Program-made: the position numbers and the translations under genes
NCBI GenBank assembly: GCA_016946835.1
Contig: JACVTC010000179.1
Coordinates: 103,501-167,500, forward strand
Direction: 5' to 3'
DNA length: 64,000 nucleotides
From: Neocallimastix lanati (nom. inval.)
Taxonomy: Eukaryota > Neocallimastigomycota > Neocallimastigomycetes > Neocallimastigales > Neocallimastigaceae
Part shown: positions 1,190-52,216 of the stretch, piece by piece
Position numbering within the stretch: position 1 is the first letter of the stretch
Layout: each line of letters begins with the position of its first letter
The notes under the pieces: model-generated
Told to the model about the DNA's origin: nothing
The model's input: the letters and a program-made list of their open reading frames with translations, nothing else
Databases searched by the model: none

Positions 1190-1749
1190 TGATATTTTAT
1201 GGTTTATATCTTAATTCTGAATAGGCTCAGAAAGTGACATAACCAATATCAATAATTAAATTTAGAAAAAGTTGTTTTTGTGATTAAGATTTTAAAAATA
1301 TGTTTTATTAATATATATTTTATTTATTTTAAAAATTATTTTATATACATCTTTTAATTTTATTATTTAAATTATTATTTTAATTATTTAATATTATTAT
1401 TAATATTTAGTTTTTGATTAAAATGAGTAAAAACTATATAAAAACCTGATTATTAAAATAAATAAAATTAAGAACTATTTATATTAATTTAGTAAATTAT
1501 ACATTTTAAAATTTGTTTACATGTTATAAGTATTTACAATTAATAATATTTTAAAAATTATTATTTCTGTTTATTGTTTATTTTATTTTTTTATTATTAA
1601 AATATTATTTAATATATTTTTATTTTTATTAATTTATTAATTGTTTATTATTAAACATTATAAAATTTGTACCGTGATATTAATTATATATATATATATT
1701 TTTTTTAATATAATATGAAATTTATATTTATAAATTTCATTATTTATCA
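1190..1749 (-). repeat. LTR-H, 5' LTR of Element 0
   Basis: This 560-bp LTR starts TGATAAAT and ends ATATCA on the minus strand, with a TGATA/TATCA terminal inverted repeat. The primer-binding site follows after two bases, so it is a 5' LTR. The outer flank TTTG (1750-1753) is the first of the repeated 4-bp spacers. Only one copy is in the window, so internal limits cannot be cross-checked. Confidence 0.65.
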
Positions 1750-1755
1750 TTTGTG

Positions 1756-2767
1756 TGTAATAGCTATACTAAAACTAAAAATCAATTAATATAACTATTA
1801 TCTATAATTTTAATATTATTTTTACATAATATTAAAATTGAGAAAATAAAAATTAAAAAAATAAAAATTATACTTAATCATACAGAATATAACAAACAAT
1901 AACCAAGCAACGGCAGAATAGTAGTTGAAAATATTCTTTAAAAAAAAAAAAAAAACCTTTTATGATTAATAACAGTTTTTTTTGATATATAAAAAAATTT
2001 ATTTTATTTGTTATTATTTATTATATTTTCTTAAAATAATAACTCTTGATTTCTCAAAGAGAATTCAAGAGTCCTATTTATATTTTTTAAAAAATTAATC
2101 GGTTAAATAAATTTGTTTTCTAATCTTAACAAAAAATCTATTTAGGAAAAGATTAGAAGAAAAACCTAAATAGTTTTTCGATCAATATTCTAATCATATT
2201 GATCATCGTATAATTAAAGAAAACCTATTTGTTAGGAAAAACATTAATTACCGATTTTCTAATTAGTTATAAAATATTAAATATTGATAGGATAGGAATT
2301 AATGAAAAAAAAAAGATTTTTTTTTTTTTTTTTTTTTTTCATTTAAAAAATAAAGATTAAATAATGTGATAGATTAGATACATTTATAGTTTATAATACA
2401 TTATAAAATACATAATTCATTTTAATTAAAATAACTAATATTTTTATGGTAAAATATTAAATACAAATTTACATAATTTTTTGTAAAAATTCTATTTAAA
2501 TGAATAATAATAATAAGTAAATAAATTTTATATTATTTATATAAATGTATAAAATTATAATATATAAATAAATTTAGATCAATATATGAAAATATAACTA
2601 TTAAATAAATTTATAAGTTAAAATCAATGAATATATTAATTATTATTTAAATAAATATTTTTTTAAAAATAATTATTATTTTATAAATAATTATAAATTA
2701 TTAATTATTTTTCATTAATTATAAGAAATATTAATTATTCATTATTGAATAATTATGATTTCTTACA
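1756..2767 (-). repeat. LTR-D copy 1 (palindrome-rich single LTR)
   Basis: It has TGTAA...TTACA ends and a 5-bp target duplication TTGTG (1751-1755 and 2768-2772). Removing it leaves LTR-H, TTTG and LTR-G exactly joined, so it inserted into an LTR/LTR junction. It is homologous to the copies at 25,638, 39,432 and 50,008. A TATA-like element and a CTCTTGA/TCAAGAG hairpin near 2042-2072 read on the minus strand. An A run and a T run interrupt it around 2310-2340. Confidence 0.75.
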
Positions 2768-2770
2768 TTG

Positions 2771-3256
2771 TGATACGTGACCACTATAAAAATGGTATTT
2801 AGGTAGATTCTTTAGGTTAAAGAAATACTTAAATATTATTGGTCAATAATAATTTTATAATAATATATATAATTTTATAACAATATATAATTTTATAATA
2901 ATAATTATTAAACGGAGAATTCTTTTATTTATAAGTTTATACTTATTATAAATTAATTCACATAAATAGCTATTTTTATATTTTATTTTAGTATAGTTAA
3001 AAGAGATATTATATATATTTGAGATAATTAATTATAATATTTATATAAAAGAGTAATAATAATAATAATTGATGTAATAATTAATAATTAATAATAAATA
3101 AAGAGAACATTAAAAAGATATATTTATTACTTTATTTTGTATTATTGTATGTGTTATTTCTATTTAATATTAGAATATATTATTTTGTCATAATTCCTTA
3201 TTGTCATTGCCCATAAATAAATATTAATTTAGATACATAAATAAAATATCGTATCA
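2771..3256. repeat. LTR-G copy 1
   Basis: A 486-bp unit with TGATACG...CGTATCA inverted ends. It is nearly identical to the next two units and is separated from unit 2 by TTTG (3257-3260). A TATAAAA lies 17 bases from the start. It is best read as a solo LTR, although the three units together look like a simple tandem repeat of about 489 bp. Confidence 0.75.
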
Positions 3257-3260
3257 TTTG

Positions 3261-3744
3261 TGATACGTGACCACTATAAAAATGGTATTTAGGTAGATTC
3301 TTTAGGTTAAAGAAATACTTAAATATTATTGGTCAATAATAATTTTATAATAATATATATAATTTTATAACAATATATAATTTTATAATAATAATTATTA
3401 AACGGAGAATTCTTTTATTTATAAGTATATACTTATGATAAATTAATTCACATAAATAGCTATTTTTATATTTTATTTTAGTATAGTTAAAAAGAGATAT
3501 TATGTATATTTGAGATAATTAATTATAATATTTATGTAAGAGAGTAGTAATAATAATTGATGTAATAATTAATAATTAATAATAAATAAAGAGTACATTA
3601 AAAAGATATATTTATTACATTATTTTGTATTATTGTATGTGTTATTTCTATTTAATATTAGAATATATTATTTTGTTATAATTCCTTATTGTCATTGCCC
3701 ATAAATAAATATTAATTTAGATACATAAATAAAATATCGTATCA
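3261..3744. repeat. LTR-G copy 2
   Basis: A 484-bp second unit with TGATACG...CGTATCA ends, flanked by TTTG on both sides (3257-3260 and 3745-3748). It differs from unit 1 by a few substitutions and one-base indels. Confidence 0.75.
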
Positions 3745-3748
3745 TTTG

Positions 3749-3989
3749 TGATACGTGACCACTATAAAAATGGTATTTAGGTAGATTCTTTAGGTTAAAG
3801 AAATACTTAAATATTATTGGTCAATAATAATTTTATAATAATATATATAATTTTATAACAATATATAATTTTATAATAATAATTATTAAACGGAGAATTC
3901 TTTTATTTATAATTTATACTTATGATAAATTAATTCACATAAATAGCTATTTTATATTTTATTTTAGTAAAGTTAAAAAGAGATATTAT
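3749..3989. repeat. LTR-G copy 3, left part (interrupted by Element I)
   Basis: The unit begins with the same TGATACGTGACC start and stops at the Element I insertion point. Its right part resumes at 12,020. Together they restore a full unit once the TTAT target duplication is counted. Confidence 0.8.
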
Positions 3990-4787
3990 TGATAAGAATG
4001 TACTAAATAATGCATTCTTAATTAAATCTACGATTTATTTCTAATACATTATGTGTACATTATTATTTTTGTACTTTAATAAATTTTTAAATCCAAAGAT
4101 CAAAAATTAAATCAAAAATTATATTAAACTTTATATTTTTATATTAAATCTTATATTAATAGTAATATTTTTATATATTTAAAACTTATACTAGCAATAT
4201 TAATAATAAATCTTATTTTTTTATTTTTATATTAATAATGAAAATTTGTATTAATAATATTTTTATATATTGATGATTAAAAATTTATATATTATAATTT
4301 AACTTTTATTATAAAATTTTATATCGAAATGTTTTATTTTATATTGAAAAATATTTTATTTTATTAAAAACCTTTATATTAGAATAGTATTTTTATTTTT
4401 ATTTGAATATTTTAACAAATTGTAATAAAAATTATAGCCAATTAAATAAATTCTTATTAGTAATATTTTAGATAGATTATAAAAAAAAAAAAAAAATGTT
4501 TTATTAATATTATAAATGTATTTTATTTATATTGTTATAATTAAATTTTATATAATTGATTATAAAACTCAATTTAAATTTAATAGTTTTTATAAAAAAA
4601 AAAAATAAATAAAATGTAATTTAGTGGCAAGAACAACTTTTATGCTTTGAAAAAAGTATAAATAATTGTAAATTTTGCTACTAATTTTTAAATATCATCA
4701 AATAAATTTATAAATAAAAATAATAAATAAATAAATAAAATTTGTATTTCTTACTTTATTTTTATTTAATTCTCTAAAACCTTAACA
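3990..4787 (+). repeat. LTR-A, 5' LTR of Element I
   Basis: 798 bp, starting TGATAAGAATG and ending CTTAACA. A TATA box (TATAAATA, 4657-4664) marks the likely transcription start region. It is nearly identical to the 3' LTR at 11,219 and to the 5' LTR of Element V at 41,898. Confidence 0.85.
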
Positions 4788-4793
4788 TTTATA

Positions 4794-4811
4794 TGGTGGA
4801 GATATCGGGGA
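4794..4811 (+). promoter_or_regulatory. Primer-binding site of Element I
   Basis: TGGTGGAGATATCGGGGA begins six bases after the LTR end. It is identical in Element V and has one difference in Element IV. It would pair with a tRNA 3' end reading TCTCCACCA. The tRNA is not identified. Confidence 0.7.
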
Positions 4812-5480
4812 ATTAAATAGAAATAATAGTAAATAACATAGATTTTTTTTAATTTTTTTTTTATTCTATATTGATAAACAAGTAAGTCGTTAATCCTTTG
4901 ATTAACCTATGGCGCTTGTTTGATATATATATAAAAAAAAAAAAATTTTTTTTAAATAAGTAAAATTAAGATTCTAAAAAAAAGATTGTAAATTATAACA
5001 AGGAGCGGATAGAGCTCATATACAGTGTATTTCCAGAAAACAACAAAATATCTATTATTCATAGTAGGTTATTGGATAATAGTTATTTTAGGAATTAATT
5101 GGAAAGTAGACGAAGGTATTTGGTTACCGACCCGGTAATAATAGTTCAGCCTTCAACGTTTCAACACACGAAGGTGCGGGTACTTTCCAAGCACTGGCGA
5201 ATAAGGAGCTTATGTCACCGAAGGCGTAAGATTGTTTTTTTTTATATTTTTTTTATTTTTCTTTGTGCTAGTTATAAGGCACTTTATTATATAAAGTATC
5301 AGACTTTGGCTAACTTTGCCATTTAAATTTTTTTTATTTTTTTTTTCTTTATTACTGGTACTTTATTTGTTATATAATTCCTGTAATAGAATCTTAATTT
5401 ACTTTGAAAATATTGTGTTTTTAGTTAATTTTTATTAGTTAATAAAAATATTATTGAATACTTTTAAAATTTTTTTTATT

Positions 5481-5650
5481 CCGTACATAGATTATCGGAT
5501 TAAGTTTATCCTACATAGTAATTGGGCTAGTGGGCTCTGAACTGCTATATTTTATATTGAATATAGTAATCGTGGCACACGCGTGGCATGACACCATTAG
5601 GTAAGCTGCACGTCAGACAGTGTGTACTATCAGATTGTACGACAATAAAG
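5481..5650 (+). ncRNA. Conserved structured leader RNA segment, Element I
   Basis: About 170 bases with far more G and C than the surrounding leader. It is shared with Element V (43,394-43,563) and, with many substitutions nearby, Element IV (32,384-32,550). One hairpin, CTATATT/AATATAG around loop TTATATTG, becomes CTATTTT/AAAATAG in Element IV with the loop unchanged: a compensatory base-pair change. The segment also holds GGCACACGCGTGGCATGACACC-like inverted motifs and an AGGTAAGC that resembles a 5' splice site. Likely roles are packaging, dimerisation, translation or splicing control of the genomic RNA; none is shown. Confidence 0.6.
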
Positions 5651-5807
5651 ATTATTTTTTGTGTTTAATAATTATAATTAATTAATAATTTTATTAGCTA
5701 TAACAATACAATTTTTATCGTTTAAAAAGAAAAATTTTTGAAAGGTGAAAATAATAAATAAAACTTTGCTTCTAAATTTATTACTACAAATATACTAAAT
5801 TACAAAA

Positions 5808-6123
5808 TTCAAGTGGTCGATAAAGATTTCGAGCTTGAAAAATATTCTATTAAGTTGTCGATAAAGATTTCGAACTTAAAATTATTCTATTAAGTTGTCG
5901 ATAAAGATTTCGAACTTAAAATTATTCCATTAAGTTGTCGATAAAGATTTCGAACTTAAAAATTATTCTATTAAGTTGTCGATAAAGATTTCGAACTTAA
6001 AAATTATTCTATTGAGTTGTCGATAAAGATTTAGAACTTAAAAATTATTCTTAATAAAGTAGTCGAAAAGAACCTCGTGCTTTATAATTTCTACTAAGTT
6101 GTCGATAAGGATTTCGAGCTTAT
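5808..6123 (+). repeat. Array of eight leader hairpins, Element I
   Basis: Eight units of about 42 bases each hold a short stem around a core reading GTCGATAAAGATTTCG, separated by AT-rich spacers. Stems vary but stay paired: TTCAAG/CTTGAA in unit 1, TTAAGTT/AACTTAA in units 2-5, TAAAG/CTTTA in unit 7, TAAG/CTTA in unit 8. The core itself can pair through TCGA/TCGA. Element V has only five units, so the array changes in copy number. It ends about 170 bases before the gag ATG. Confidence 0.7.
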
Positions 6124-6296
6124 ATCTACTAAAGAAAGCAAATAAAATTATTATTTTCAAAAGTTACTAAAATATATTGTTTTAAAAATTGATTCGATAT
6201 TAAATTACCTATTAAATTATATTTTTAAAGTTTTATTTCCAAATTTATTCTTATTTAATCACCTCATTAATATACAACAAGAAATATTTAAACAAA

Positions 6297-7202
6297 ATGT
6301 CCAAGGAAACAACTTTGAGCTTTAAAGAATTGAAAAAAGAATTGAGAGATATTGTGAAACTTAGCAAGGACAATTTAGATATTAAGTCCTGGGCTACTGA
6401 ATTAAAACTTTGGATCAAGATACAAGGTATCACAGATCCAGAAACAATATTTAATGCTTGTTTACTTACCAGCTCTGGTGAAGTACAACGCGTTATTGAA
6501 GATTTGGGAGAAGATAGTGATGATGAAAGTGATGATTCATCAGATGAAGAAGAAGAAGATGATGAAGAAGAAAATGTTGATGATGATATTAAATTTCCTT
6601 CCCTTGAAAAAATTATTTCAAGTCTTGAAAATTTTTACGGTATTAAAGAAGACCAAAATTTACTTCTTAAAGAACTTCGTGCAATGCGAATTAAAAGAAA
6701 CGAAAAGATTAAAGACTTTAATGTAAGATACAGAACTTTGTACACTAAACTTGATAAAAAGAGAAGAAAGCGCATTGGTGTACTAGATTATATTGATTCT
6801 ATTCAAAATAATTATGAAGCCTGGAAGAAATTATCCCTTAAAGATGATATAAGTATAGATAAAGCTTTCAAAATTGCCGAGAAAGTAGATAGACTTTCTG
6901 TAAGGAACAATAATACCTATAATATTAATAATTCCCAACATAATCAAAATAATCAAAACAGTACTACTTCAAGACTTTATCCTAAAAGAAGAAACGAAAA
7001 TTTCCAAACAAGTCAAACAAATAATAAACTGAAACCTCAAGATATTATAGAAGAATCAACCCAGAAAATGAGAAATTTATCTGTTAAAACTTGCTTCTTC
7101 TGTAAGGAAGAAGGTCATTACTCATACTATTGTCCTCAATTAAATAAGATTATGGAAAAAAATAAAAAAGAAATATATTCCAAAAAGTCTTTAAACTTCT
7201 AA
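6297..7202 (+). CDS. gag: Gag of Element I
   Basis: 301 residues starting ATG in an ACAAAATG context. It forms the particle shell and binds the element RNA. Residues about 1-70 and 100-210 are a helical capsid-like region (KELKKELRDIVKL..., then NFYGIKEDQNLLLKELRAM). Between them is an acidic run of Asp and Glu at about 76-101, which differs in length from Element V by in-frame loss. Residues 210-250 are Asn/Gln-rich. A CCHC zinc knuckle CFFCKEEGHYSYYC sits near 266-279. The frame ends at TAA 7200-7202, six codons after entering the slippery heptamer region, so a fraction of ribosomes should continue into pol in the -1 frame. The reading frame is undamaged. Confidence 0.9.
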   Translation: MSKETTLSFKELKKELRDIVKLSKDNLDIKSWATELKLWIKIQGITDPETIFNACLLTSSGEVQRVIEDLGEDSDDESDDSSDEEEEDDEEENVDDDIKFPSLEKIISSLENFYGIKEDQNLLLKELRAMRIKRNEKIKDFNVRYRTLYTKLDKKRRKRIGVLDYIDSIQNNYEAWKKLSLKDDISIDKAFKIAEKVDRLSVRNNNTYNINNSQHNQNNQNSTTSRLYPKRRNENFQTSQTNNKLKPQDIIEESTQKMRNLSVKTCFFCKEEGHYSYYCPQLNKIMEKNKKEIYSKKSLNF

Positions 7203-7223
7203 ATGGGAGCAGAAGCACTCCCA
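7190..7223 (+). promoter_or_regulatory. -1 ribosomal frameshift signal, Element I gag/pol
   Basis: The heptamer TTTAAAC (7190-7196) lies in gag phase T TTA AAC. A 7-base spacer contains the gag stop, then a hairpin GGGAG...CTCCC (7204-7223) follows. After a -1 slip the frame is open from 7196 for 63 codons to the first ATG of pol (7385) and on into protease. The same heptamer, spacer length and hairpin occur in Elements III, IV and V. Confidence 0.85.
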
Positions 7224-10200
7224 ATGACAAAAAAATAGCTTCATTAAAAAATTTACAAAAGAATCTAATTACCAAGAATACTCCAATTGATAATAATTCC
7301 TTTAATGAAGAATCTGAAGAATCTGATTTTAGTGACACAACTGAAAGTGAGGATGATATCATTATAAATGCTATAAAAAGAAAAATGAATGATAATAACA
7401 GCGAAAAAGAAGAAAATAATTCCAAGAAAGTACATAAAAGTTTAAAAGATAATCCACGTCCTTTCGCAACTCCTGCTTTAAGAAAGAAGAAAGAAAATGA
7501 GCTACATAATAAACCAAATAAAGTTTATAAAAATCAAATACTTCCTTCAATTTTAACTCAACCAAATATTAATAAAGAAAAACAAAAAGAAAAGGAATTA
7601 AGAAATATGACAAGAGTAAGAGAAAGTAAAGAAGAAAACAACAATTATTCATCAAAAGGAAAGGAAAAAGTTGAATCTGAAGATATACTTGTAATCGATA
7701 ATGAAATAGAAGATCTAGAAATGAATAAAGATAATCAACAAAATAAAACTAATACTTTGGAAAAATTAATTTCAACAAAAACTAAAGAAACTAATAATGA
7801 AAATACTCAGTTAGTAAAAAGGAATATCAAAATGATGAATAATAAAGAACCTTACAATATTATGGATGATTTAAATAATCTTAAATCCAGTATTACGATA
7901 GGTCAACTCTTGAATGCATGTCCTAAAATTCGTTCACAATTAACTCAAGGTTTAAAGTTAGAAAAATCTAAAATAATTGGAACTGTAGACAATGTAATAG
8001 CACGAACTTTATTAGTAAATAACTATGATCATAGCTACATAAGTAAAAGTAATGAAGTAGCCGAAGAAGACTTAGCAATGGTTGATGCAAGTGTTGACGG
8101 AGTACTAGGAAAACTTTTAATTGATTCTTGTAGTAACCTAAGCATCGTTACTAAGCAGTATTTTGATAAATTACCTGGTGAATATGAAACAGTTGGAAAA
8201 AGTCGTGGAAGAATCCAACTAGCAACACAAGATGAAGAATACTCGGAAGGAATTATTGTTCGATTACCAGTAAAAATTAATAATTATGAATTTAATGCGG
8301 ACTTTAGAATTATTGAGAAAGAAGACTCTTTTTATGATATGTTAATAAATTTTAAAACTCAAATCGATCATTGTTTATTTATTCATCCAACCTTAAACAG
8401 TCTATGTAAACTTTTGTCAGAAAGTGAATACGAAGAAATAGCTAAAATAAATAATCAATATTATGATGAAGAAAGTATAATTTGCACTATTAGAAAAGTT
8501 AAAGAAACGAATAATGAAAAGGAAATTATAAAGGAATTAACTCCAATGGAATTTATTGAGAGTGATGAATTTTTAAGTACCTTAAATAAAGATTATAAAG
8601 AACAAATTATTAAAATTCTCAAAGAAATGATTGACATAGTTGCCACTTCAACAGAAGAACTAACTCCTTCTAAACTTTCACCATATAAGATCCGTTTAAA
8701 AGCTAATGCAAAGCCAGTAAAATTAAGAAGTTATAGGTTAACTAAATTAAAATCAGATATCTTAAAAGAAGAACTTACAAAGCTTATTAAGAAAGGATTG
8801 ATAGAACCATCCTGTTCAGAATGGTCATCTCCAGTAATACTTATTCTAAAACACAACGGAAAGTGGCGCTTGTGCATTGACTACCGAAAAGTCAATGATA
8901 TGACAGAAAAAGATTCTTATTCAGTTCCATATATAGATGAAATTTTTGATAGTCTCGGAGGAGCTAAAATATTTACAACTCTTGATTTATTTTCTGGTTT
9001 TCACCAAATCTTAATGGATGAAGAAAGCGTTGAAGTAACCACTTTCACTACTAAGTTTGGAAATTATCAATTTAAGGTTATGCCTTTTGGACTTACTGGA
9101 GCTCGCTCAACCTTCCAAAGAGAAATGAATAAAATTTTATTCCCTTTTATTGGTGAATTTGTTTATGTATTTATTGATGATGTTTTGATCTATTCAAAAA
9201 GTATCGAAGAACATTTAATTCATATTAAACAAGTATTAGAAGTATTTAAAGAAAACAAGTTAAAAATTAATATTGAAAAGTGCCATTTTCTTCAAACTGA
9301 AGTTGATGTATTAGGTCACAAACTTACTACTAAAGGATTAAGTCCCATGGAAAGTAAAATAACAGCTATTAAGAAGTGGGAAGCCCCTTCATCAATGCAT
9401 GAATTAAGATCATTTCTAGGAGCAGTAGGATATTATCGTGACTTTATTCCTAAATATGCTCAAATTACCTCACCTTTATGTAAATTATTGAAAAAGAATA
9501 CTAAATATGAATGGAATAAAGAACAACAAGAAAGCTTTGAACTCCTAAAAGAAAAATTAATCAATGCACCTATCCTAAAATTTCCGTCATTTGACAAACC
9601 TTTTATCATTAGAACTGATGCTTCGTATAATGGAATTGGTTGAGTTCTTTTACAAAAAGAAGAAGAAACCGATAAGGAGCATCCAATACACTTTATAAGT
9701 AGAAGTTTGAAGAAAGCTGAAAAGAATTATGGTATCACAGATTTGGAAGGAACAGCTTTATTCTACTGTATGACTAAATTTAAATCTTATATTGAAGGAA
9801 ATCCATTACCTACAACTATTTACACAGATCATAAACCATTAGTTGGTTTATTTAAGAATAAAGAACCTTTGAGTGCAAGGCAAACAAGATGGTGTCTAAC
9901 CGCTAGTATACTTGGAATTAATATAAAATATGAATCAGGCAAAAAGAATGTGTTAGCTGATGCTCTTTCAAGAATGAAAAGTAAGGAAGAGAGAAAGATA
10001 TTATTAACAAAAATTACTAATGGAAATAATGAAGAATTATTATCTAAAGTTATAAAGGAATTTATTAATGAAAAGTTTACTGTTATTGATGGTGAAGATT
10101 ACTTTATCGACAATGGAAATTATAGAAAATTAATAACGGATGAAAATAAAAAATTTAAATTAATTTTAGAAGCTCATAATATTGGCCACGAAGGATATTA

Positions 10201-11200
10201 CAAAACATATCAAAGACTTAAGAAAAACTTTTATTGGAATCATATGATTAAAGATATCAAAAGAATTGTTAGTAATTGTGAAAAATGCCAGTTAAATCGT
10301 CCTCAACCATATCCAGAACCAACCGAAAACCATCCAACTAAAGTGGAGGGTCCCTTTGTGCATTTAGGATTAGATATTATAGGACCGTTACCAAAAACAA
10401 GAAATAATAATCAATATATTATAGTAACTATTGATTACTTTACCAAATGGGTTGAAGCCGAACCCACTGAAAACATAACTTCCTCTGATATAATTAAATT
10501 TTTAATAAATGTTTTTGCAAGACATTGCGTGCCTCAAGTTATTACCACCGATAATGGAGCATAATTCACCTCTGACATGACAAAAATCTTTCTTGACCTT
10601 TATGACGTTTATGTAAAATTCATAGCTACTTACCACCCTGAATCAAATGGCCTTACTGAAAATCGAAATAAAGAAATTGGAAAATTACTCCGTTTATTAG
10701 GAAGGAAAAATCAAGATTGGGATGAAGTTTTACCTTCTGCTTTATGGGCACTTCGAACTACCAAAAATACAGCTACTGGACATTCTAGTTTTGAATTAGT
10801 ATATGGAAGAGAAGACCAACAGCCTTATGATATAGCCATAAGAACAATTGAAAATGCAGGTAAATCATATGATGAAATTTTAATGGAAAAATTTGTTCGT
10901 CATTATCAATGGACTAGAGAAGCATGCGAAAATGTGAAGAATGCTAACAAGTATTGGGCAACAAGACGAGAAGAACAAATAAGTATGAAAAAAGGAAAAG
11001 AATTAAAAGCTGGTGATCTTGTTCTTGTTAGAAACTTTAACCGCACTAAGCTAGAACCATATTACAATGGACCATTTAAAATTTTAAAAATTCAATTCAA
11101 CACAGCAACCCTAATCGATCAGAAGACTGGAAAGCAACTCGATAGGAATGTTCACTTTAAAAATTTAGTAAAGTTTAACTCCGCTTACAGAGAAGCTTGA
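7196..11200 (+). pseudogene. pol: Pol of Element I (protease-RT-RNase H-integrase), two nonsense codons
   Basis: One frame of about 1,335 codons entered by frameshift at 7196 and broken by TGA (9641-9643, at the RNase H start, where Element V has GGA) and TAA (10,562-10,564, after integrase DNGA, where a CAA is expected). Domain order: a long basic and acidic linker; protease with LIDSCS (8123-8131); RT with LDLFSGFHQI and FIDD (9176-9181); RNase H (TDLEGTALFYC, TDHKPL); integrase zinc-binding HHCC (HNIGHEGYYK...CEKCQ), the D,D-35-E core, and a C-terminal GPF module (YYNGPFKIL). The Met at 7385 is only an internal codon of the fusion. RT also has GARST where Element V has GAPST. The product would make and integrate cDNA. 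Confidence 0.85.
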
Positions 11201-11208
11201 GTCTTCGT

Positions 11209-12015: not shown

Positions 12016-12019
12016 TTAT

Positions 12020-40392: not shown

Positions 40393-40396
40393 CTTT

Positions 40397-41184: not shown

Positions 41185-41189
41185 CTTTT

Positions 41190-41893: not shown

Positions 41894-41897
41894 TTTT

Positions 41898-42723
41898 TGA
41901 TAAGAATGTACACATAATGCATTCTTAAATAAATCTACGATTTATTTCTAATACATTATGTGTACATTATAATTTTTGTACTTTAATAAATTTTTAAATC
42001 CAAAGATCAAAAATTAAATCAAAAATTATATTAAACTTTATATTTTTATATTAAATCTTATATTAATAGTAATATTATTATATATTTAAAACTTATATTA
42101 GCAATATTAATAATAAATCTTACTTTTTTTTTTATTAATAATGAAAATTTGTAATAATAATATTTTTATATATTGATAATTAAAAATTTATATATTATAT
42201 TTTAACTTTTATTATAAAATTTTATATCGAAATGTTTTATTTTATATTGAAAAATATTTTATTTTATTAAAAACCTTTATATTAGAATAGTATTTTTATT
42301 TTTATTTGAATATTTTAACAGATTGTAATAAAAATTATAGCCAATTAAATAAATTCTTATTAGTAATATTTTAGATATTTTTAAAAAAAAAAAAAAAAAA
42401 AAAAAATGTTTTATTAATATTATAAATGTATTTTATTTATATTGTTATAATTAAATCTTATATAATTGATTATAAAATTCAATTTAAATTTAATAGTTTT
42501 TTATAAAAAAAAATAAATAAAATGTAATTTAGTGGCAAGAACAACTTTTATGCCTTGAAAAAAAGTATAAATAGTTGTAAATTTTGCTACCAATTTTTAA
42601 AAATCATGATAAAATAAATTTAATAAAATAAATAAATAAAATAAATAAATAAAATAAATAAATAAATAAATAAAATTTGTGTTTCTTTACTTTATTTTTA
42701 TTTAATTCTCTAAAACCTTAATA
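41898..42723 (+). repeat. LTR-A, 5' LTR of Element V
   Basis: 826 bp, homologous to 3990-4787 with longer A and AAAT runs. Ends CTTAATA where Element I has CTTAACA. TATAAATA is near 42,566. Confidence 0.85.
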
Positions 42724-42729
42724 TTTATA

Positions 42730-42747
42730 TGGTGGAGATATCGGGGA
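42730..42747 (+). promoter_or_regulatory. Primer-binding site of Element V
   Basis: Same 18 bases as Element I, six bases after the LTR end. Confidence 0.7.
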
Positions 42748-43393
42748 ATTAAATGGAAATAATAGTAAATAACATAGATTTTTTTTTTTAATTTTTTTTT
42801 TTTTATTTTATATTGATAAACAAGTAAGTCGTTAATCCTTTGATTAACCTATGGCGCTTGTTTGATATATATATAAAAAAAATTTTTTTTAAATAAGTAA
42901 AATTAAGATTCTAAAAAACAAATTTTGTAAAATTATAACAAGGAGCGGATAGAGCTCATACACAGTGTATTCTCAGATAGCAACAAATTAACTCTATTCA
43001 TAGTAGGTTATTGAATAGTAGTTAATTTGGAGATTAATTGGAAAGTAGACGAAGGTATTTGGTTACCGACCCGGTAATAATAGTTCAGCCTTCAACGTTT
43101 CAACACACGAAGGTGCGAATAAGGAGCTTACGTCACCGAAGGCGTAAGATTGTTTTTTTATATATATTTTTTTTTACTTTTCTTTGTGCTAGTTATAAGG
43201 CACTATATTATATAAAGTATCAGATTTTGGCTAACTTTGCCATTTAATTTTTTTTATTTTTTTTATTGCTGGTACTTTATTTGTTATATAATTCCTGTAA
43301 TAGAATCTTAATTTACTTTGAAAATATTGTGTTTTTAGTTAATTTTTATTAGTTAATAAAAATATTATTGAATACTTTTAAAATTTTTTTATT

Positions 43394-43563
43394 CCGTACA
43401 TAGATTATCGGATTAAGTTTATCCTACATAGTAATTGGGCTAGTGGGCTCTGAACTGCTATATTTTATATTGAATATAGTAATCGTGGCACACGCGTGGC
43501 ATGACACCATTAGGTAAGCTGCACGTCAGACAGTGTGTACTATCAGATTGTACGACAATAAAG
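43394..43563 (+). ncRNA. Conserved structured leader RNA segment, Element V
   Basis: Almost identical to 5481-5650. Upstream (about 42,940-43,160) the leader also matches Element I, except for a deletion of about 21 bases flanked by GCG. Confidence 0.55.
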
Positions 43564-43720
43564 ATTATTTTTTGTGTTTAATAATTATAATTAATTAATA
43601 ATTTTATTAGCTATAACAATACAATTTTTATCGTTTAAAAAGAAAAATTTTTGAAAGGTGAAAATAATAAATAAAACTTTGCTTCTAAGTTTATTACTAC
43701 AAATATACTAAATTACAAAA

Positions 43721-43920
43721 TTCAAGTGGTCGATAAAGATTTCGAGCTTGAAAAATTATTCTATTAAGTTGTAGTTGTCGATAAAGATTTCGAACTTAAA
43801 ATTATTCTATTAAGTTGTCGATAAAGATTTCGAACTTAAAATTATTCTTAAAAAAGTAGTCGAAAAGAACCTCGTGCTTTATAATTTCTACTAAGTTGTC
43901 GATAAGGATTTCGAGCTTAT
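43721..43920 (+). repeat. Array of five leader hairpins, Element V
   Basis: Same unit type as 5808-6123 but only five copies: the first, two TTAAGTT/AACTTAA units (one with a TAGTTG insertion), and the last two. The loss of three central units fits slippage or recombination between identical repeats. Confidence 0.7.
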
Positions 43921-44076
43921 ACCTACTAAAGAAAGCAAATAAAATTATTATTTTCAAAAGTTACTAAAATATATTGTTTTAAAAATTGATTCGATATTAA
44001 ATTACCTATTAAATTATATTTTTAAAGTTGGATTTCCCAAATTTATTCGTATTTAATCACCTCATATTTAGACAAA

Positions 44077-44961
44077 ATGTCCAAGGAAACAACTTTGAGC
44101 TTTAAAGAATTGAAAAAAGAATTGAGAGATATTGTGAAACTTAGCAAGGACAATTTAGATATTAAGTCCTGGGCTACTGAATTAAAACTTTGGATCAAGA
44201 TACAAGGTATCACAGATCAGGAAACAATATTTAATGCTTGTTTACTTACCAGCTCTGGTGAAGTACAACGCGTTATTGAAGATTTGGGAGAAGATAGTGA
44301 TGATGAAAGTGATGATGAAGAAGAAAATGTTGATGATAATATTAAATTTCCTTCCCTTGAAAAAATTATTTCAAGTCTTGAAAATTTTTACGGTATTAAA
44401 GAAGACCAAAATTTACTTCTTAAAGAACTTCGTGCAATGCAAATTAAAAGAAACGAAAAGATTAAAGACTTTAATGTAAGATATAGAACTTTGTACACTA
44501 AACTTGATAAAAAGAGAAGAAAGCGCATTGGTGTACTAGATTATATTGATTCTATTCAAAATAATTATGAAGCCTGGAAGAAATTATCCCTTAAAGATGA
44601 TATAAGTATAGATAAAGCTTTCAAAATTGCCGAGAAAGTAGATAGACTTTCTGTAAGGAACAATAATATTAATACCTATAATGTTAATAATTCCCAGCAT
44701 AATCAAAATAATCAAAACAGTACTACTTCAAGACTTTATCCTAAAAGAAGAAACGAAAATTTCCAAACAAGTCAAACAAATAATAAACCGAAACCTCAAG
44801 ATATTATAGAAGAATCAACCCAGAAAATGAGAAATTTATCCGTTAAAACTTGCTTCTTCTGTAAGGAAGAAGGTCATTACTCATACTATTGCCCTCAATT
44901 AAATAAGATTATGGAAAAAAATAAAAAAGAAATATATTCCAAAAAGTCTTTAAACTTCTAA
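44077..44961 (+). CDS. gag: Gag of Element V
   Basis: 294 residues, intact. Differs from Element I Gag mainly by a shorter acidic run (about residues 76-92) and a two-residue insertion in the Asn-rich part. The zinc knuckle CFFCKEEGHYSYYC is near residues 259-272. Ends at the TAA beside the frameshift heptamer. It is likely the best-preserved Gag of this family in the window. Confidence 0.9.
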   Translation: MSKETTLSFKELKKELRDIVKLSKDNLDIKSWATELKLWIKIQGITDQETIFNACLLTSSGEVQRVIEDLGEDSDDESDDEEENVDDNIKFPSLEKIISSLENFYGIKEDQNLLLKELRAMQIKRNEKIKDFNVRYRTLYTKLDKKRRKRIGVLDYIDSIQNNYEAWKKLSLKDDISIDKAFKIAEKVDRLSVRNNNINTYNVNNSQHNQNNQNSTTSRLYPKRRNENFQTSQTNNKPKPQDIIEESTQKMRNLSVKTCFFCKEEGHYSYYCPQLNKIMEKNKKEIYSKKSLNF

Positions 44962-44982
44962 ATGGGAGCAGAAGCACTCCCA
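44949..44982 (+). promoter_or_regulatory. -1 ribosomal frameshift signal, Element V
   Basis: TTTAAAC (44,949-44,955), a 7-base spacer with TAA, and the GGGAG/CTCCC hairpin (44,963-44,982), identical to Element I. The -1 frame is open for the whole of pol. Confidence 0.85.
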
Positions 44983-47900
44983 ATGACAAAACAATAGCTT
45001 CATTAAATAATTTACAAAATAATACTTTTACTAAGAATACTCCAATTGATAATAATTCCTTTAATGAAGAATTTGAAGAATATGATTTTAGCGACACAAC
45101 TGAAAGTGAGGATGATATCATTATAAATGCTATAAAAAGAAAAATGAATGATAATAACAGCGAAAAAGAAGAAAATAATTCCAAGAAAGTACATAAAAGT
45201 TTAAAAGATAATCCACGTCCTTTCGCAACTCCTGCTTTAAGAAAGAAGAAAGAAAATGAGCTACATAATAAACCAAATAAAGTTTATAAAAATCAAATAC
45301 TTCCTTCAATTTTAACTCAACCAAATATTAACAAAGAAAAACAAAAAGAAAAGGAATTAAGAAATATGACAAGAGTAAGAGAAAGTAAAGAAGAAAACAA
45401 CAATTATTCATTAAAAGGAAAGGAAAAAGTTGAATCTGAAGATATACTTGTAATCGATAATGAAATAGAAGATCTAGAAATGAATAAAGATAATCAACAA
45501 AATAAAACTAATACTTTGGAAAAATTAATTTCAACAAAAACTAAAGAAACTAATAATGGAAATACTCAGTTAGTAAAAAGGAATATCAAAATGATGAATA
45601 ATAAAGAACCTTACAATATTATGGATGATTTAAATAATCTTAAATCCAGTATTACGATAGGTCAACTCTTGAATGCATGTCCGAAAATTCGTTCACAATT
45701 AACTCAAGGTTTAAAGTTAGAAAAATCTAAAATAATTGGAACTGTAGACAATGTAATAGCACGAACTTTATTAGTAAATAACTATGATCATAGCTACATA
45801 AGTAAAAGTAATGAAGTAGCCGAAGAAGACTTAGCAATGGTTGATGCAAGTGTTGACGGAGTACTAGGAAAACTTTTAATTGATTCTTGTAGTAACCTAA
45901 GCATCGTTACTAAGCAGTATTTTGATAAATTACCTGGTGAATATGAAACAGTTGGAAAAAGTCGTGGAAGAATCCAACTAGCAACACAAGATGAAGAATA
46001 CTCGGAAGGAATTATTGTTCGATTACCAGTAAAAATTAATAATTATGAATTTAATGCGGACTTTAGAATTATTGAGAAAGAAGACTCTTTTTATGATATG
46101 TTACTAAACTTTAAAACTCAAATCGATCATTGTTTATTTATTCATCCGACCTTAAACAGTCTATGTAAACTTTTGTCAGAAAGTGAATACGAAGAAATAG
46201 CTAAAATAAATAATCAATATTATGATGAAGAAAGTATAATTTGCACTATCAGAAAAGTTAAAGAAACGAATAATGAAAAGGAAATTATAAAGGAATTAAC
46301 TCCAATGGAATTTATTGAGAGTGATGAATTTTTAAGTACCTTAAATAAAGATTATAAAGAACAAACTATTAAAATTCTCAAAGAAATGATTGACATAGTT
46401 ACCACTTCAACAGAAGAACTAACTCCTTCTAAACTTTCACCACATAAGATCCGTTTAAAAGCAAATTCAAAGCCAGTAAAATTAAGAAGTTATAGGTTAA
46501 CTAAATTAAAATCAGATATCTTAAAAGAAGAACTTACAAAACTTATTAAGAAAGGATTGATAGAACCATCCTGTTCAGAATGGTCATCTCCAGTAGTACT
46601 TATTCTAAAACACAATGGAAAGTGGCGCTTGTGCATTGACTACCGAAAAGTCAATGATATGACAGAAAAAGATTCTTATTCAGTTCCATATATAGATGAA
46701 ATTTTTGATAGTCTCGGAGGAGCTAAAATATTTACAACTCTTGATTTATTTTCTGGTTTTCACCAAATCTTAATGGATGAAGAAAGCGTTGAAGTAACCA
46801 CTTTCACTACTAAGTTTGGAAATTATCAATTTAAGGTTATGCCTTTTGGACTTACTGGAGCTCCCTCAACCTTCCAAAGAGAAATGAATAAAATTTTATT
46901 CCCTTTTATTGGTGAATTTGTTTACATATTTATTGAGGATGTTTTGATCTATTCAAAAAGTATCGAAGAACATTTAATTCATATTAAACAAGTATTAGAA
47001 GTATTTAAAGAAAACAAATTAAAAATTAATATTGAAAAGTGCCATTTTCTTCAAACTGAAGTTGATGTATTAGGTCACAAACTTACTACTAAAGAACACA
47101 TTAAACAAGTATTAGAAATCTTCAAGGAAAATGATCTAAAAATTAACATTGAAAAATGCCACTTTATGCAAACCGAATTAGATGTTCTTGGTCATAGAGT
47201 GACCACTGAAGGACTAAAACCAATTGAAAGTAAGGTAGAAGCTATTAAGAATTGGAAAGCTCCTTCTGACGTTTATGAACTTCGCTCATTCTTAGGATCA
47301 GTGGGATATTATCGCGATTTCATTCCGAACTATGCTCAAATAACTGCTCCTATCTGTAAGTTGCCTAGAAAGGGAGTTACGTATGAATGGAACGAACAAC
47401 ATCAGGAAAGATTTAATCTCCTTAAGGAAAAATTGATTAATGCACCGATTCTTAAGTATCCAGATTTTGAGAAAGAATTTATTATTCGAACAGATGCTTC
47501 GTATGAAGGAATTGGTGGAGTACTACTACAAAAGGACGAAAATGATGTAGAACATCCAGTGCACTTTGTAAGTCGAAGTCTTACTAAAGCTGAAAAGAAT
47601 TATGGTATAACAGACTTAGAAGGAACCGCATTATATTATTGCATCACTAAGCTTAAACCATATATCATGGGAAGTCCGTTTATAACTATCGTCTACACTG
47701 ATCACAAACCCCTACTTGGACTATTTAAAAATAAGGAACCCAACAATGCTCGACAAACTAGATGGTGCCTCACGGCTAGTATGTTAAAAGTTGACATTCG
47801 TTACGAACAAGGGAAAAAGAATGTTGTTGCTGATGCCTTATCTAGAATGAAGAATCTTGAAGAAAAGAAAGTATTAGCAACCAAAATTAGTAATAATGAA

Positions 47901-49067
47901 GAAAACGATCTGCTATCTAAAGTTATTAAAGAATTCATTAACGAAAAGTTTACAAAAATAGATGGAGTAGAATACTTCATTGATGGAAACAATTATAGGA
48001 AATTAGTCACAGAAACTGATGAAAAGTTAAAACTTATATTTGAAGCTCATAAAATTGGACACGATGGTTATTACAAAACATACCAACGCTTGAGGAAAAG
48101 TTACTACTGGAATGATATGGTGAATGATATTAAAAGAGTCATATCTAAATGTGACAAATGCCAATTGAATCGACCGCAACCTTATCCAGAACCTACGGAA
48201 AATCTTCCAACTCAAGTGGAAGGTCCATTTACACATCTTGGTCTAGATATTATAGGTCCGCTAAAACCAACAAGTAATAATAACCAATATATCTTAGTAG
48301 TAGTAGATTACTTTACTAAGTGGGTAGAAGCCAAGCCTACTGAAAGTATTACTTCAAAAGATGTAGTAAAATTCTTAATTAAAGTTTTCGCTCGTCATGG
48401 AGTTCCTCAAGTTATTACTACTGACATTGGGGTACAATTCACTTCCGATATGACCAAGGTATTTCTCGATTTGTACGATGTTTATGTTAAGTTTGTTTCT
48501 ACTTATCATCCTGAAAGCAATGGATTGACTGAAAATAGGAACAAAGAAATAGACAAGCTATTACGACTTCTAGGAATCGAAAATAGAGATTGGGACGAAG
48601 TATTACCGTCGGCTCTTTGGGCTCTTAGAACAGTTAAAAATTCTACAACTAATCATTCAAGTTTCGAATTAGTGTATGGCCGAGAAGATCAGCAACCCTT
48701 TGATATCGCTGCTAGACCAACTAAAGGAATTAATAAATCATCTGATGAAATCTTACTGGAAAAATTTATCAATCATTATCGCTGGACTATAGAAGCTTGT
48801 GAAAACATCAAGAATGCCAATAAATATTGGGCTGCCAGACGAGAAGAAAAACAGAGCTGGAATAAAGTTAAAGAAATTAAAGCCGGAGATCTTGTGCTTG
48901 TTAGAAACTTTAGTAGAACTAAGTTGGAACCCTACTTTGTTGGACCATTAAAGGTAATTAAAAGGCAATTCAATACTGTTACTCTCGCAGACGTCAAGAC
49001 CGGAATTCAAATGAACAGAAATGTTCATGTAAAGAATATAGTAAAGTATAACTCAGCTCTAGTATAG
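44955..49067 (+). CDS. pol: Chimeric Pol of Element V, open throughout
   Basis: Entered by -1 slip at 44,955; the first Met of the frame is 45,144, from which it runs 1,307 residues. Protease LIDSCS (from 45,882); RT with LDLFSGFHQI and FIED (46,929-46,940): the first catalytic Asp of the FIDD seen in Element I is Glu. At 47,092-47,096 the sequence switches family and repeats about 40 residues: HIKQVLEVFKEN...DVLGHKLTTK is followed at once by EHIKQVLEIFKEN...DVLGHRVTTE. Then RNase H (RTDASYEGIGGVLL), integrase HHCC (HKIGHDGYYK, CDKCQ), D,D-35-E (TTDIGVQFTSD, NGLTENRNKE) and the GP module (YFVGPLKVI). The frame is intact, but the Asp-to-Glu change and duplicated segment make an active RT doubtful. 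Confidence 0.85.
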   Translation, partial: LLNGSRSTPNDKTIASLNNLQNNTFTKNTPIDNNSFNEEFEEYDFSDTTESEDDIIINAIKRKMNDNNSEKEENNSKKVHKSLKDNPRPFATPALRKKKENELHNKPNKVYKNQILPSILTQPNINKEKQKEKELRNMTRVRESKEENNNYSLKGKEKVESEDILVIDNEIEDLEMNKDNQQNKTNTLEKLISTKTKETNNGNTQLVKRNIKMMNNKEPYNIMDDLNNLKSSITIGQLLNACPKIRSQLTQGLKLEKSKIIGTVDNVIARTLLVNNYDHSYISKSNEVAEEDLAMVDASVDGVLGKLLIDSCSNLSIVTKQYFDKLPGEYETVGKSRGRIQLATQDEEYSEGIIVRLPVKINNYEFNADFRIIEKEDSFYDMLLNFKTQIDHCLFIHPTLNSLCKLLSESEYEEIAKINNQYYDEESIICTIRKVKETNNEKEIIKELTPMEFIESDEFLSTLNKDYKEQTIKILKEMIDIVTTSTEELTPSKLSPHKIRLKANSKPVKLRSYRLTKLKSDILKEELTKLIKKGLIEPSCSEWSSPVVLILKHNGKWRLCIDYRKVNDMTEKDSYSVPYIDEIFDSLGGAKIFTTLDLFSGFHQILMDEESVEVTTFTTKFGNYQFKVMPFGLTGAPSTFQREMNKILFPFIGEFVYIFIEDVLIYSKSIEEHLIHIKQVLEVFKENKLKINIEKCHFLQTEVDVLGHKLTTKEHIKQVLEIFKENDLKINIEKCHFMQTELDVLGHRVTTEGLKPIESKVEAIKNWKAPSDVYELRSFLGSVGYYRDFIPNYAQITAPICKLPRKGVTYEWNEQHQERFNLLKEKLINAPILKYPDFEKEFIIRTDASYEGIGGVLLQKDENDVEHPVHFVSRSLTKAEKNYGITDLEGTALYYCITKLKPYIMGSPFITIVYTDHKPLLGLFKNKEPNNARQTRWCLTASMLKVDIRYEQGKKNVVADALSRMKNLEEKKVLATKISNNEENDLLSKVIKEFINEKFTKIDGVEYFIDGNNYRKLVTETDEKLKLIFEAHKIGHDGYYKTYQRLRKSYYWNDMVNDIKRVISKCDKCQLNRPQPYPEPTENLPTQVEGPFTHLGLDIIGPLKPTSNNNQYILVVVDYFTKWVEAKPTESITSKDVVKFLIKVFARHGVPQVITTDIGVQFTSDMTKVFLDLYDVYVKFVSTYHPESNGLTENRNKEIDKLLRLLGIENRDWDEVLPSALWALRTVKNSTTNHSSFELVYGREDQQPFDIAARPTKGINKSSDEILLEKFINHYRWTIEACENIKNANKYWAARREEKQSWNKVKEIKAGDLVLVRNFSRTKLEPYFVGPLKVIKRQFNTVTLADVKTGIQMNRNVHVKNIVKYNSALV

Positions 49068-49078
49068 CTTGAGTCTTT

Positions 49079-49090
49079 GCGGGGGCATCT
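49079..49090 (+). promoter_or_regulatory. Polypurine tract region of Element V
   Basis: GCGGGGGCATCT lies directly before the 3' LTR, identical to that of Element IV. Confidence 0.6.
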
Positions 49091-50001
49091 TGTTAAAGAA
49101 GAAGCAAATATTGTTAATTTGGTCTCAAATCTAACAAATAACTTAACCTCAAATTAAACTATTTGCCTTCCTTATTGTATGGAACTTTCCTATATTCTAC
49201 TATAAATTAAAATTGAATTATTTCTTAATAAATAATATATTACTTATATTAAATAATTTTTATTTATATATTTCTTATTTAAAATTATTATATTATTATT
49301 GAAATGTTAACAAATTATCAATATATTTTTTTTTATTAATATTTTTATTTTATCAATTTATTATTGTCAAGTTATATTAAAAATCTAGATAGTTTTTCTT
49401 TAACCAATAGTTATTCATTGTATTAATAATAAAAATTAATTTCTAAATAATATTACTAATACATAATAATACAAAAAAAAATAAAATTATATATTATTAA
49501 TATATGTTTATTATAATCCATAATGTTATATTTTTAAGAATTAATTATAACAATTATATTGAATAATTTAAAATTTATATTATTTTACACATAAATGAAG
49601 GATTTAGTAAGTTATAATTACTAAACCACATTAGTAAATTCTGCAAAATTGATAAAATTATGTTTAAAATATATTAATAATGCATTAATAATTAATTAGG
49701 ATAAATTTTTATATATAATAGAAATACTTAAATTAAATTTATTAAATATAATTTAAAAATTTGAATTATTATTAAAAGAAATTAAAAATAAGAAATGGCT
49801 TTCCCATTTCTAAATAATTGTAAAAGTATAAAAAGAGATAGTTTAGAAAAAAAAAAAAAAAAAAGAAATAATAATAATAATCATGTAATATATTATAATA
49901 AATAAATTTTAATAAAGATTTTTAATAAAACAAAAATTTTCTTTTATTTTTATTATTGTTTTAATTTTATTTATAATTTTTGAAAACCCCGAACCAAACC
50001 A
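49091..50001 (+). repeat. LTR-C-like, 3' LTR of Element V
   Basis: 911 bp, TGTTAAAGAAG start and AACCAAACCA end, followed by GGAT (50,002-50,005). It does not match the element's 5' LTR. No second copy of this exact LTR is in the window. Confidence 0.75.
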
Positions 50002-50007
50002 GGATTG

Positions 50008-50859
50008 TGAAAGAATCTATAATTATTTTCTAACAAATAATTATATTTTCTTAGTTAAGTTATTATAACTATAACTTTATTTAATTACATATAATATTTA
50101 TTAAATTTATTTAATTTAATTTTAAATATTCATTAATTTAACAAAATTTATTTAATTAATTTTAAATAATATATTTACAATATGTTAAATTCTCTACTGT
50201 AACTAATGTATTTTGTATCATATTTTATTTTGTATTTTATAATGTATTCTGTATTTTATTAACTATTTAATTTTATATTTTTAATATAAGGATAAATTAT
50301 ATGATCGAAATATCTTTTATTATTTTATTCTTTTATTTTCGATCATTAGATTGGAAAATCGGTTAATTAAGATTTTTTCCAATTACTTTTTAGAAGTAAT
50401 CGGTTTTACTTAATTAATGCGATGATCGATATGGATAGAATATCGATCGAAAACTTATCTAGGTTTTTCTATATAATCTTTTCCTAGATAAGAGATTTGT
50501 TAAGATTAGAAAACAATTTCTTATTTAACCTTATTTTCATAAAAAAAATATAAATAAGGCTCTTGAGTTCTCTTTGAGAAATCAAGAGTTATTATTATAA
50601 AAACATAGTTATAATAGTAACAATTTTATATTTTTAACTTTAATAAATTAATAAAAATATTTTATTCAAAAACATATTTTTATAATCAATTTATACAAAC
50701 AATTCTTCTCTTACTTTTTGTGTTATTATTATAATTAATTTTATAATAAACTCTAAAGGTAAAAAAAATTATTTTATTTTATTTTCTCAACTTAATGAAT
50801 TAGTCGTTAAGTTGTAGTTAATAATTCTATTTTGATTAGTTCTTAATAGAATTATTACA
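50008..50859 (+). repeat. LTR-D copy 4
   Basis: 852 bp with 5-bp duplication GATTG (50,003-50,007 and 50,860-50,864). Starts TGAAAGAATC, ends ATTACA. Removing it joins the Element V LTR, GGAT and LTR-E. The palindromic section is at 50,301-50,590. Confidence 0.8.
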
Positions 50860-50862
50860 GAT

Positions 50863-51362
50863 TGATAAATAACAAAATTAATAAATCTTGAAAATTTATT
50901 ATACATAAAATCAAAACTAACCTTAGCCAAGTTTAATAATAATTTAATAAAATAAAAAAAATTAATTAATTAAAACAAATAAATTACACTTAAAAATTAC
51001 ATTAATACTCAGATATGAAAGAAATATTATATATTTTTCAAAATAAAATATTAAGATTAAATTTAAAATAAAATAATTAGTTTTAATAATTTGTTTTATA
51101 ATAATTTTTATAATTAATTTTATAATTAAATAATAATTTTATAATAACAAAATTTATTAATTTAAATAACAAAATATTTTTAATTATTTTTATAATAAAC
51201 AAATTTATTTATTTTATTATTAAATATTTATTTTATTATTAAATATTTATTTTATTATTAATTTTATTACTTTTATTTTATTTAATTATTCTTTTTATTT
51301 ATAAATTATAAATAGTTTAATTTTAAAGAAAAATATAAATACTTGTAAATATTTCATGTAAA

Positions 51363-51393
<31 letters not shown>

Positions 51394-51639
51394 TAATTAA
51401 TTAATTTTATAATTTTAATAATCACTTTTAATTTTTATAATGTTTAATAAATTTTAATAAAAGATTTATAAAATAAAATATTAGGAAACAAGTGTTCTAA
51501 TAAATCAAATTTTTAGTGTTATTCTTAATAAAACATTTTTTTTAATTCATAAATAACGTATACAGTTATTATTAAAATAAATTGAAATTATCACTTTTTA
51601 ATTCTATATTAAAATTAAGATAATTTCTAAAATTTATCA
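50863..51639 (+). repeat. LTR-E copy 2 (solo)
   Basis: 777 bp, TGATAAAT...TTTATCA, GGAT on both sides (50,002-50,005 before LTR-D insertion, and 51,640-51,643). Homologous to 30,652-31,402 with an extra ATTA-rich repeat. Confidence 0.8.
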
Positions 51640-52216
51640 GGATTGTTACGGTACTATTAAATAAAGAAAAATTAAACTATTTAAAGAAAATATTTGTTAA
51701 GATTATATTTGGTTTTGATATAACTTAGTTGGAATGCTATAAACTAATAACTTCCTTATGATAATTAAATTTTATTTTATCAGTATTATTATAGAATTTT
51801 ATTATATTTTTATTTTATTATTTTATTTGATTTTATTTAGTAATATTTTTTAATGAATGAAGTTATCAGATTATTAAAATATTAATAATCTTACGAAGAT
51901 TATTTAAAACATTTAATTCACTATTCTTTTATACATAAAAAATAAACAATTAAAAAGTTATATAATAATAAATAAAATAATAAACAATAGTTTAAAAAGT
52001 TAGATAATAATAAATAAAAAATAAACAATTAATTATACTTTAAAAAGTATAAATTATATTCAACAATTTTATTATTATTATTATTTAATAATAATAAATA
52101 ATATATATTTATATTGTAAAAGGATTTTGAGGCGTATGATCATACTAAATAATGATTAATTTGTTATGGTAATGAGGCTTATATAACTCATCGAGTTATA
52201 TCCTTTACAATATTTG
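51640..52216. other. End of the LTR chain; AT-rich DNA with a foldback
   Basis: After GGAT the sequence begins TGTTACGG, which could be a further LTR, but I cannot find a matching end. At 52,116-52,212 a small foldback has TGTAAAAGGAT and ATCCTTTACA arms, enclosing a perfect TATAACTC/GAGTTATA hairpin. No gene seen. Confidence 0.4.

Follow-up and report, generated by a model that had tools for sequence, protein, structure and literature searches.

The window analysed here is a 64,000-nucleotide stretch of the Neocallimastix lanati genome (C89:103501-167500 of a 199-Mb assembly in 762 contigs) that carries a chain of long terminal repeats (LTRs) and LTR retroelements joined end to end. G+C content ranges from 11 to 42% across 2-kb bins and is mostly below 20% in the LTR stretches. 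Every junction listed in the original prediction was found in place: TTTG at 1750, 3257, 3745 and 12256; GCTT at 24700, 25632, 26935 and 38425; TTTT at 27888, 28845, 29636, 41186 and 41894; CTTT at 40393 and 41185; and GGAT at 50002 and 51640. Its description of the spacers as 4 bp long holds for most junctions but not for all, the range being 3-6 bp. GCTT, CTTT, TTTT and CTTTT are overlapping registers of a single sequence, GCTTTT (27886-27891, 39426-39431), and the spacers fall into three groups, namely TTTG (1750-12259), registers of GCTTTT (24700-41897) and GGAT (50002-51643).

The coding elements of the chain belong to the Ty3/Gypsy class (Metaviridae), with a pol domain order of protease, reverse transcriptase (Gypsy-type), RNase H and integrase, LTRs of the form TG...CA, a primer binding site (PBS) behind the 5' LTR and a polypurine tract ahead of the 3' LTR. 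The LTR of family E1 starts with TA rather than TG. The top Protein Data Bank (PDB) match of the window pol was the Ty3 Gag-Pol polyprotein (7q5b, E 8e-97). By sequence comparison the alignment of the window integrase to 7q5b stops at residue 1442, short of the Ty3 C-terminal chromodomain, and no chromodomain family matched the window integrase. Four of 42 protein relatives carried names: two labelled 'Orpsp1_1' (identities of 71% and 48%, covering 64% and 51% of the query), presumably from the anaerobic gut fungus Orpinomyces, and two plant proteins (30% and 28%). The Orpsp1_1 label points to a neocallimastigomycete host as probable, though it is no proof.

At the left edge of the chain a PBS-like 12-mer on the minus strand (1175..1186, GATTCTCCACCA), the complement of the TGGTGGAGAATC that stands after 5' LTRs, belongs to a minus-strand element that is truncated at about 1150. 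A minus-strand LTR of family M (1189..1749) follows; elsewhere (L068) the window-left end of this family faces a tRNA-Arg gene. Next comes the TTTG spacer plus TG (1750..1755), of which the final five bases are the duplication of an R-family LTR-like unit at 1756..2767 (TTGTG at 1751-1755 and 2768-2772). Three plus-strand copies of family XZ then succeed one another, separated by TTTG at 3257..3260 and 3745..3748: solo LTRs a (2771..3256) and b (3261..3744), and copy c (3749..12255), a solo LTR split by a nested full-length Ty3/Gypsy element of family Y. The nested element (3990-12015) is flanked by its own TTAT duplication (3986-3989 and 12016-12019), its LTR pair differs by 6 mismatches in 797, and it contains an imperfect direct repeat of about 230 bp (5811-6122). 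Behind the last TTTG lies a truncated minus-strand Ty3/Gypsy element of family N (12260..18319), with an LTR from 12260, a minus-strand pol and its 5' part missing, and then a plus-strand Ty3/Gypsy element (18294..24699) whose 5' LTR was not recognised and whose 3' LTR, of family W, occupies 24140-24699. The region 12260-24699 thus consists of two truncated elements on opposite strands, fused near 18.3 kb.

The plus-strand chain on the GCTTTT site (24700..41897; registers GCTT, CTTT, TTTT and CTTTT) comprises LTRs at 24704-25631, 25638-26509 (R), 26513-26934, 26939-27885, 27892-28844, 28849-29635, 29640-30648 and 30652-31402, a full-length plus-strand E1 element (31408..38424), and further LTRs at 38429-39425, 39432-40392 (R), 40397-41184 and 41190-41893. 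The E1 element has discordant flanks, CTTTT on the left and GCTT on the right, and its two LTRs differ by 5 mismatches in 776, with a further 11 gap columns. One LTR contains a short tandem repeat of AAATTTTTATTATT-like units (28081-28316). The next plus-strand element (41898..50001) has LTRs of two families, Y at the 5' end and a different one at the 3' end (from 49091), which differ by 327 mismatches in 792; it is flanked by TTTT on the left and GGAT on the right. Its identity to the nested Y element is 93-100%, falling to about 70% near 47,100; a 1380-codon open frame runs through this recombination point. The plus-strand GGAT chain (50002..51643) consists of an R copy (50008-50859), an LTR (50863-51639) and GGAT (51640-51643), with the next LTR starting at 51644.

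The R family is an LTR-like unit of 0.85-1.0 kb, found in both orientations and with ends TGTAA.../...TTACA, for which no coding partner was identified. Its four window copies (1756-2767, 25638-26509, 39432-40392 and 50008-50859) have 5-bp duplications (TTGTG, CTTTG, CTTTT and GATTG), which in three of the four consist of the final three spacer bases followed by the TG of the right-hand LTR. Since the duplication includes part of that LTR, R was inserted later than its right-hand neighbour in these cases.

The three spacer groups meet at the fused pair (about 18.3 kb) and at the element with two unrelated LTRs (41898-50001). Reverse transcription does not yield a single element with two unrelated LTRs, and DNA recombination is the simplest cause of the two-family LTRs and discordant flanks. 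The fused pair and the two discordant-ended elements (31408-38424 and 41898-50001) therefore probably mark sites where recombination joined chains.

To relate these termini to tRNA genes elsewhere in the genome, 63 of 9278 candidates from a tRNA model search were scored and 30 loci taken. ARAGORN identified 62 distinct tRNA genes in these and other loci, 15 of them directly behind another tRNA. Among the remaining 47, a terminus of a window-family LTR stood 9-19 bp upstream of 26 at a score of at least 14 of 22, compared with 0/62 downstream, 0/41 taken 200 bp further up and 0/47 shuffled; at a score of at least 12 the figures were 31/47 versus 7/62, 5/41 and 2/47. Since some tRNA loci are segmental repeats of one another, these counts are partly dependent. 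Restricting the set to loci retrieved by the tRNA model gave an upstream LTR terminus in 18/37. Ten window families besides R occur at this short upstream distance from tRNA genes. Non-R termini presented their window-left end to the gene in 21 of 22 cases (15/15 in loci from the tRNA query), and this includes M and N, which lie on the minus strand in the window. Given this orientation, the window looks like three chains rooted on their left side. The R duplications within the chain predict that R should stand 2 bp further from tRNA genes; the distances observed were 10-16 bp for non-R termini (22 cases) and 14-18 bp for R (5 cases). Recurrence of the same 4-mer at tRNA loci was weak (14/31 versus 8.3 expected), the flanks being mostly about 1.4 kb and many 4-mers all A/T. 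As a separate observation, a single contig (C555:170732-399007) carries, within about 230 kb, 34 of the top 63 tRNA matches listed, some as little as about 0.5 kb apart; tRNA-Arg(TCT) genes have been amplified locally there, and LTR ends lie upstream of some of them. 5S genes were rejected as general landmarks, being too few (9 matches among 47 scored of 1146 candidates).

Copies of XZ and E1 were then sampled by their own sequence. For XZ, 73 matches were obtained from 40 scored of 713 candidates and 30 loci were taken; leaving out the window loci (L009, L014), partial copies, one-flank copies and repeats of one locus gave 14 copies or elements with both outer flanks, which were read by eye. 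Their duplications agreed in 13 of 14 (ten on four bases, three on the final three; L025 disagrees); 12 had an LTR end as their 5' neighbour and two (L020, L025) a tRNA gene. For E1, 20 candidates with both ends fetched were hand-picked from 150, and three (#11, #14, #19) were dropped as a fixed offset had missed the 5' end. The 5' neighbour of the remaining 17 was a tRNA gene in three (#0, #6, #18; ARAGORN and Rfam), a tRNA-like unit called by neither program in three (#1, #3, #10) and an LTR end in 11, in one case 7 bp away (#17). In all six elements adjoining such a root, the distance from the LTR edge to the start of the B-box is 63-75 bp. Roots facing the element from further out were present for four of the 11 LTR-flanked elements: a tRNA-Arg at 3 kb (#2), a tRNA-Met at 0.8 kb (#7) and tRNA-like units about 7 kb (#4) and 8.3 kb out (#16). 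E1 #12 has a tRNA-Ala just past its 3' LTR. Identical duplications flank 13 of the 17. Taken together, the 31 sampled copies adjoin an LTR end (23), a tRNA gene (5) or a tRNA-like unit (3) and in no case plain DNA. Stacking is thus genome-wide, and the repeated, base-precise insertion at one duplication that the original prediction described is real.

Chains with their tRNA gene still in place were found at other loci. Locus L041 reads tRNA-Asn, 10 bp, GTTC, XZ, GTTC, R, TTC, XZ, GTTC, R, TTC, LTR, GTTC, R, that is, six LTRs separated by GTTC or its final three bases. GTTC recurs 478, 1823 and 3646 bases outward, and R copies end in TTC plus TG at 1346 and 2508. This is the architecture of the window's TTTG chain with the tRNA still present. 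On contig C445, TCTG precedes the first LTR past a tRNA-Arg gene and also flanks, on either side, an E1 element lying about 3 kb farther out. On C743 a tRNA-Met is followed by an LTR with TTTA, which takes in the first TA of the next E1, and then by that E1 with TTTT, flanks consistent with a 2-bp wobble. The age order along the chain runs in the expected direction in L041, a single case. Five contigs (C412, C445, C743, C747 and C755; 1210000, 2430000, 877500, 845000 and 742500 bases) have lengths that are whole multiples of 2500 bases, a sign that the assembly may have been trimmed or cut.

The tRNA-like unit beside E1 #1 (TGGCATAGTGGTTAG...GGTTCGACTC) is a repeat, and the stretch downstream of it has at least 40 matches at 99-100%. 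Its A-box pattern also covers the unit beside #10 and has 214 exact matches versus 0 for the reversed pattern. In four further pieces, read by eye, the unit recurs with an apparent LTR or R terminus at almost the same distance from it; retroelement ends thus lie just upstream of the unit at L076:160-259 and L120-L123. A facing unit lay within 10 kb on the 5' side of four of the 71 outer E1 starts listed on C1-C82 (0.4 expected), and three other arrangements of unit and E1 gave 0 each among these 71. As such facing units are missed by tRNA finders, chains that look rootless can have roots. Among the 42 tRNA-like units listed on C1-C82 there are 12 same-strand pairs 4.6-6.4 kb apart. It is conceivable, though doubtful, that some landing pads are themselves mobile, the tRNA-like unit lying in the terminal repeats of another retroelement whose RNA polymerase III (Pol III) bait would make new targets wherever it lands. 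If so, other families would stack on the new sites and the arrays would in effect propagate themselves.

We consider it likely, at a probability of roughly four in five, that the chain arose by serial, base-precise insertion of many Ty3/Gypsy-type families and R at sites some 9-19 bp upstream of Pol III units, either tRNA genes or tRNA-like ones, with the landmarks since lost. The insertion point would be fixed at or near the Pol III transcription start, and each newcomer would enter between the landmark and the previous element, reusing the same target bases and so producing the pattern that had looked self-directed. One landmark would in this way gather a row of LTRs with identical spacers, the newest nearest the landmark, and recombination between LTRs would leave solo LTRs. 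Serial insertion at a fixed Pol III start would explain why the spacers are identical, why the orientation is shared and why R is offset by 2 bp. The landmark recognised is probably the Pol III initiation complex, by analogy with Ty3, and recruitment may be through TFIIIB or other Pol III factors. Recombination between neighbouring chains would fuse them and delete landmarks; the TTTG, GCTTTT and GGAT chains would each have had a landmark to the left, now gone, and these landmarks were probably lost when the chains recombined. Exact B-box matches number 2010 in the genome versus 147 for the reversed control, and single landmark copies may therefore be expendable.

Several observations weigh against this reading. 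Searches of the window turned up no tRNA, no exact B-box and no Pol III RNA, so that the chain does not there adjoin a tRNA or tRNA-like gene, and neither a tRNA nor a tRNA-like composite was found within 6 kb on either side. The nested element (3990-12015) sits within an LTR. No facing root was found for seven of the 11 LTR-flanked E1 elements (#5, #8, #9, #12, #13, #15, #17) in the stretches examined, and four of the 17 E1 duplications differ: #4 and #16 fit the rule seen for R, #7 fits a neighbour whose TTTA takes in the element's first two bases, and #17 is unexplained. Contigs C1-C23 carry 13 outer E1 starts that have CA at a distance of 3-4 bp; a facing exact B-box lay within 10 kb of one and within 20 kb of three, hardly exceeding the 0.7 and 1.3 expected by chance; the exact motif misses 5 of 23 distinct tRNAs as well as the tRNA-like units. 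A Pol III promoter hidden in the window LTRs was considered and rejected, with no tRNA, 5S or other Rfam match at gathering score. Weaker matches in the window comprised one at chance level (E 4.6) and five one-mismatch B-boxes versus 2.3 expected, and it contains no A/B-box composite. A supposed tRNA relic left of 1187 was discarded, being PBS-like instead. A 72-bp stretch lying right of the chain (54453-54520) and oriented away from it is 78% alike to the tRNA-like unit beside E1 #3 (L078).

The original prediction proposed self-directed targeting to LTR termini. On this rival reading the integration machinery would recognise an existing LTR end or CA-NNNN-TG junction and cut exactly at the old duplication with no Pol III landmark. 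The precision and the reuse of one duplication stand, but the landmark is most likely a Pol III-type gene and not the LTR end. Absence of a landmark from the window, and of a root for six of the 17 sampled E1 elements in the stretches examined, would suit self-direction, as would the scant enrichment of facing B-boxes on C1-C23. So would the spacing of E1 starts. There are 458 exact starts genome-wide, 156 of them behind the polypurine tract; CA lies exactly 4 bp upstream of 130 and exactly 3 bp upstream of 213, about 156 of which are the tract itself, with CA expected at an estimated 3% or so of positions from base composition. Among at most 302 outer starts (458 minus 156), CA is thus exactly 4 bp away in 130 and exactly 3 bp away in at most 57. 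However, the same families stand 9-19 bp upstream of tRNA genes, at equal offset and orientation and with no LTR as landmark, and constant-spacer chains start there. The apparently rootless #4 and #16 have a facing tRNA-like unit 7-8 kb away, and an LTR-end rule alone does not set which end of each family faces left. Self-direction, including continued insertion at junctions that lack a landmark, is judged unlikely.

Tandem duplication or unequal crossing-over of an LTR-plus-spacer unit could in principle produce such a row, and the three adjacent XZ LTRs, about 97-98% identical and sharing TTTG, resemble its product. Most neighbours, however, come from different families, and tandem duplication was rejected for XZ itself, each copy being nearest to a copy elsewhere (4 differences: L012; L015-L019 and L032; L013) and farther from its neighbours, which makes this origin highly improbable. 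Least credible of all is an assembly artefact in which repeats were stitched at short overlaps. The contig set is repeat-rich and AT-rich and there are discordant and recombinant elements, but the spacers form coherent target duplications across many different contigs, a pattern that misassembly would not create.

Serial insertion upstream of Pol III-type genes has close parallels, and the comparison with Ty3 precision made in the original prediction is apt. Ty3 of Saccharomyces cerevisiae inserts with base precision at the Pol III start of tRNA genes, with the Pol III initiation complex as established landmark (PMC5911963, PMC8632968). Ty3 shares the gene order of the window elements as well as being the best PDB match of their pol, but has a 5-bp duplication, whereas most families here, XZ and E1 among them, have 4 bp and only R has 5 bp; long chains are not described for Ty3 in the available portions of these sources. 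Other yeast Ty3/Gypsy elements (Tj1, Beta/Tca8, Ylt1, Tyl3, Tyl6) lie from a few to 30 bp upstream of tRNA genes (PMC5911963), and Tyl3 resembles R in its TGTAAG/CTTACA ends and 5-bp duplication (PMC5014426). Unlike the yeast elements, ten LTR families share one type of site here, in a 199-Mb genome. In dictyostelids, DGLT-A and other tRNA-targeted elements insert 13-33 bp upstream of tRNAs (PMC5911963), and a table footnote records several elements at the same tRNA gene (PMC5006619), but fused chains of tens of kb are not described in the accessible parts of either source. The available text of the S. osmophilus genome paper likewise describes no such chain (PMC10085805). In literature outside subscription journals nothing was found on such elements in anaerobic fungi, nor on such chains. 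The kind of system is thus known (Ty3, Tj1, DGLT-A), and its lineage and scale look new.

The usual account of tRNA targeting is that it gives elements a safe haven where genomes are compact; the genome that it shapes here is very AT-rich and spans 199 Mb. The targeting acts through ten LTR families, in a genome with about 2,000 tRNA-type B-box matches, and leaves ordered rows of insertions that may read like strata, the youngest adjoining the landmark. Insertions might in this way be dated relative to one another with no molecular clock, and the rows could reveal how tRNA loci become fused and lost.

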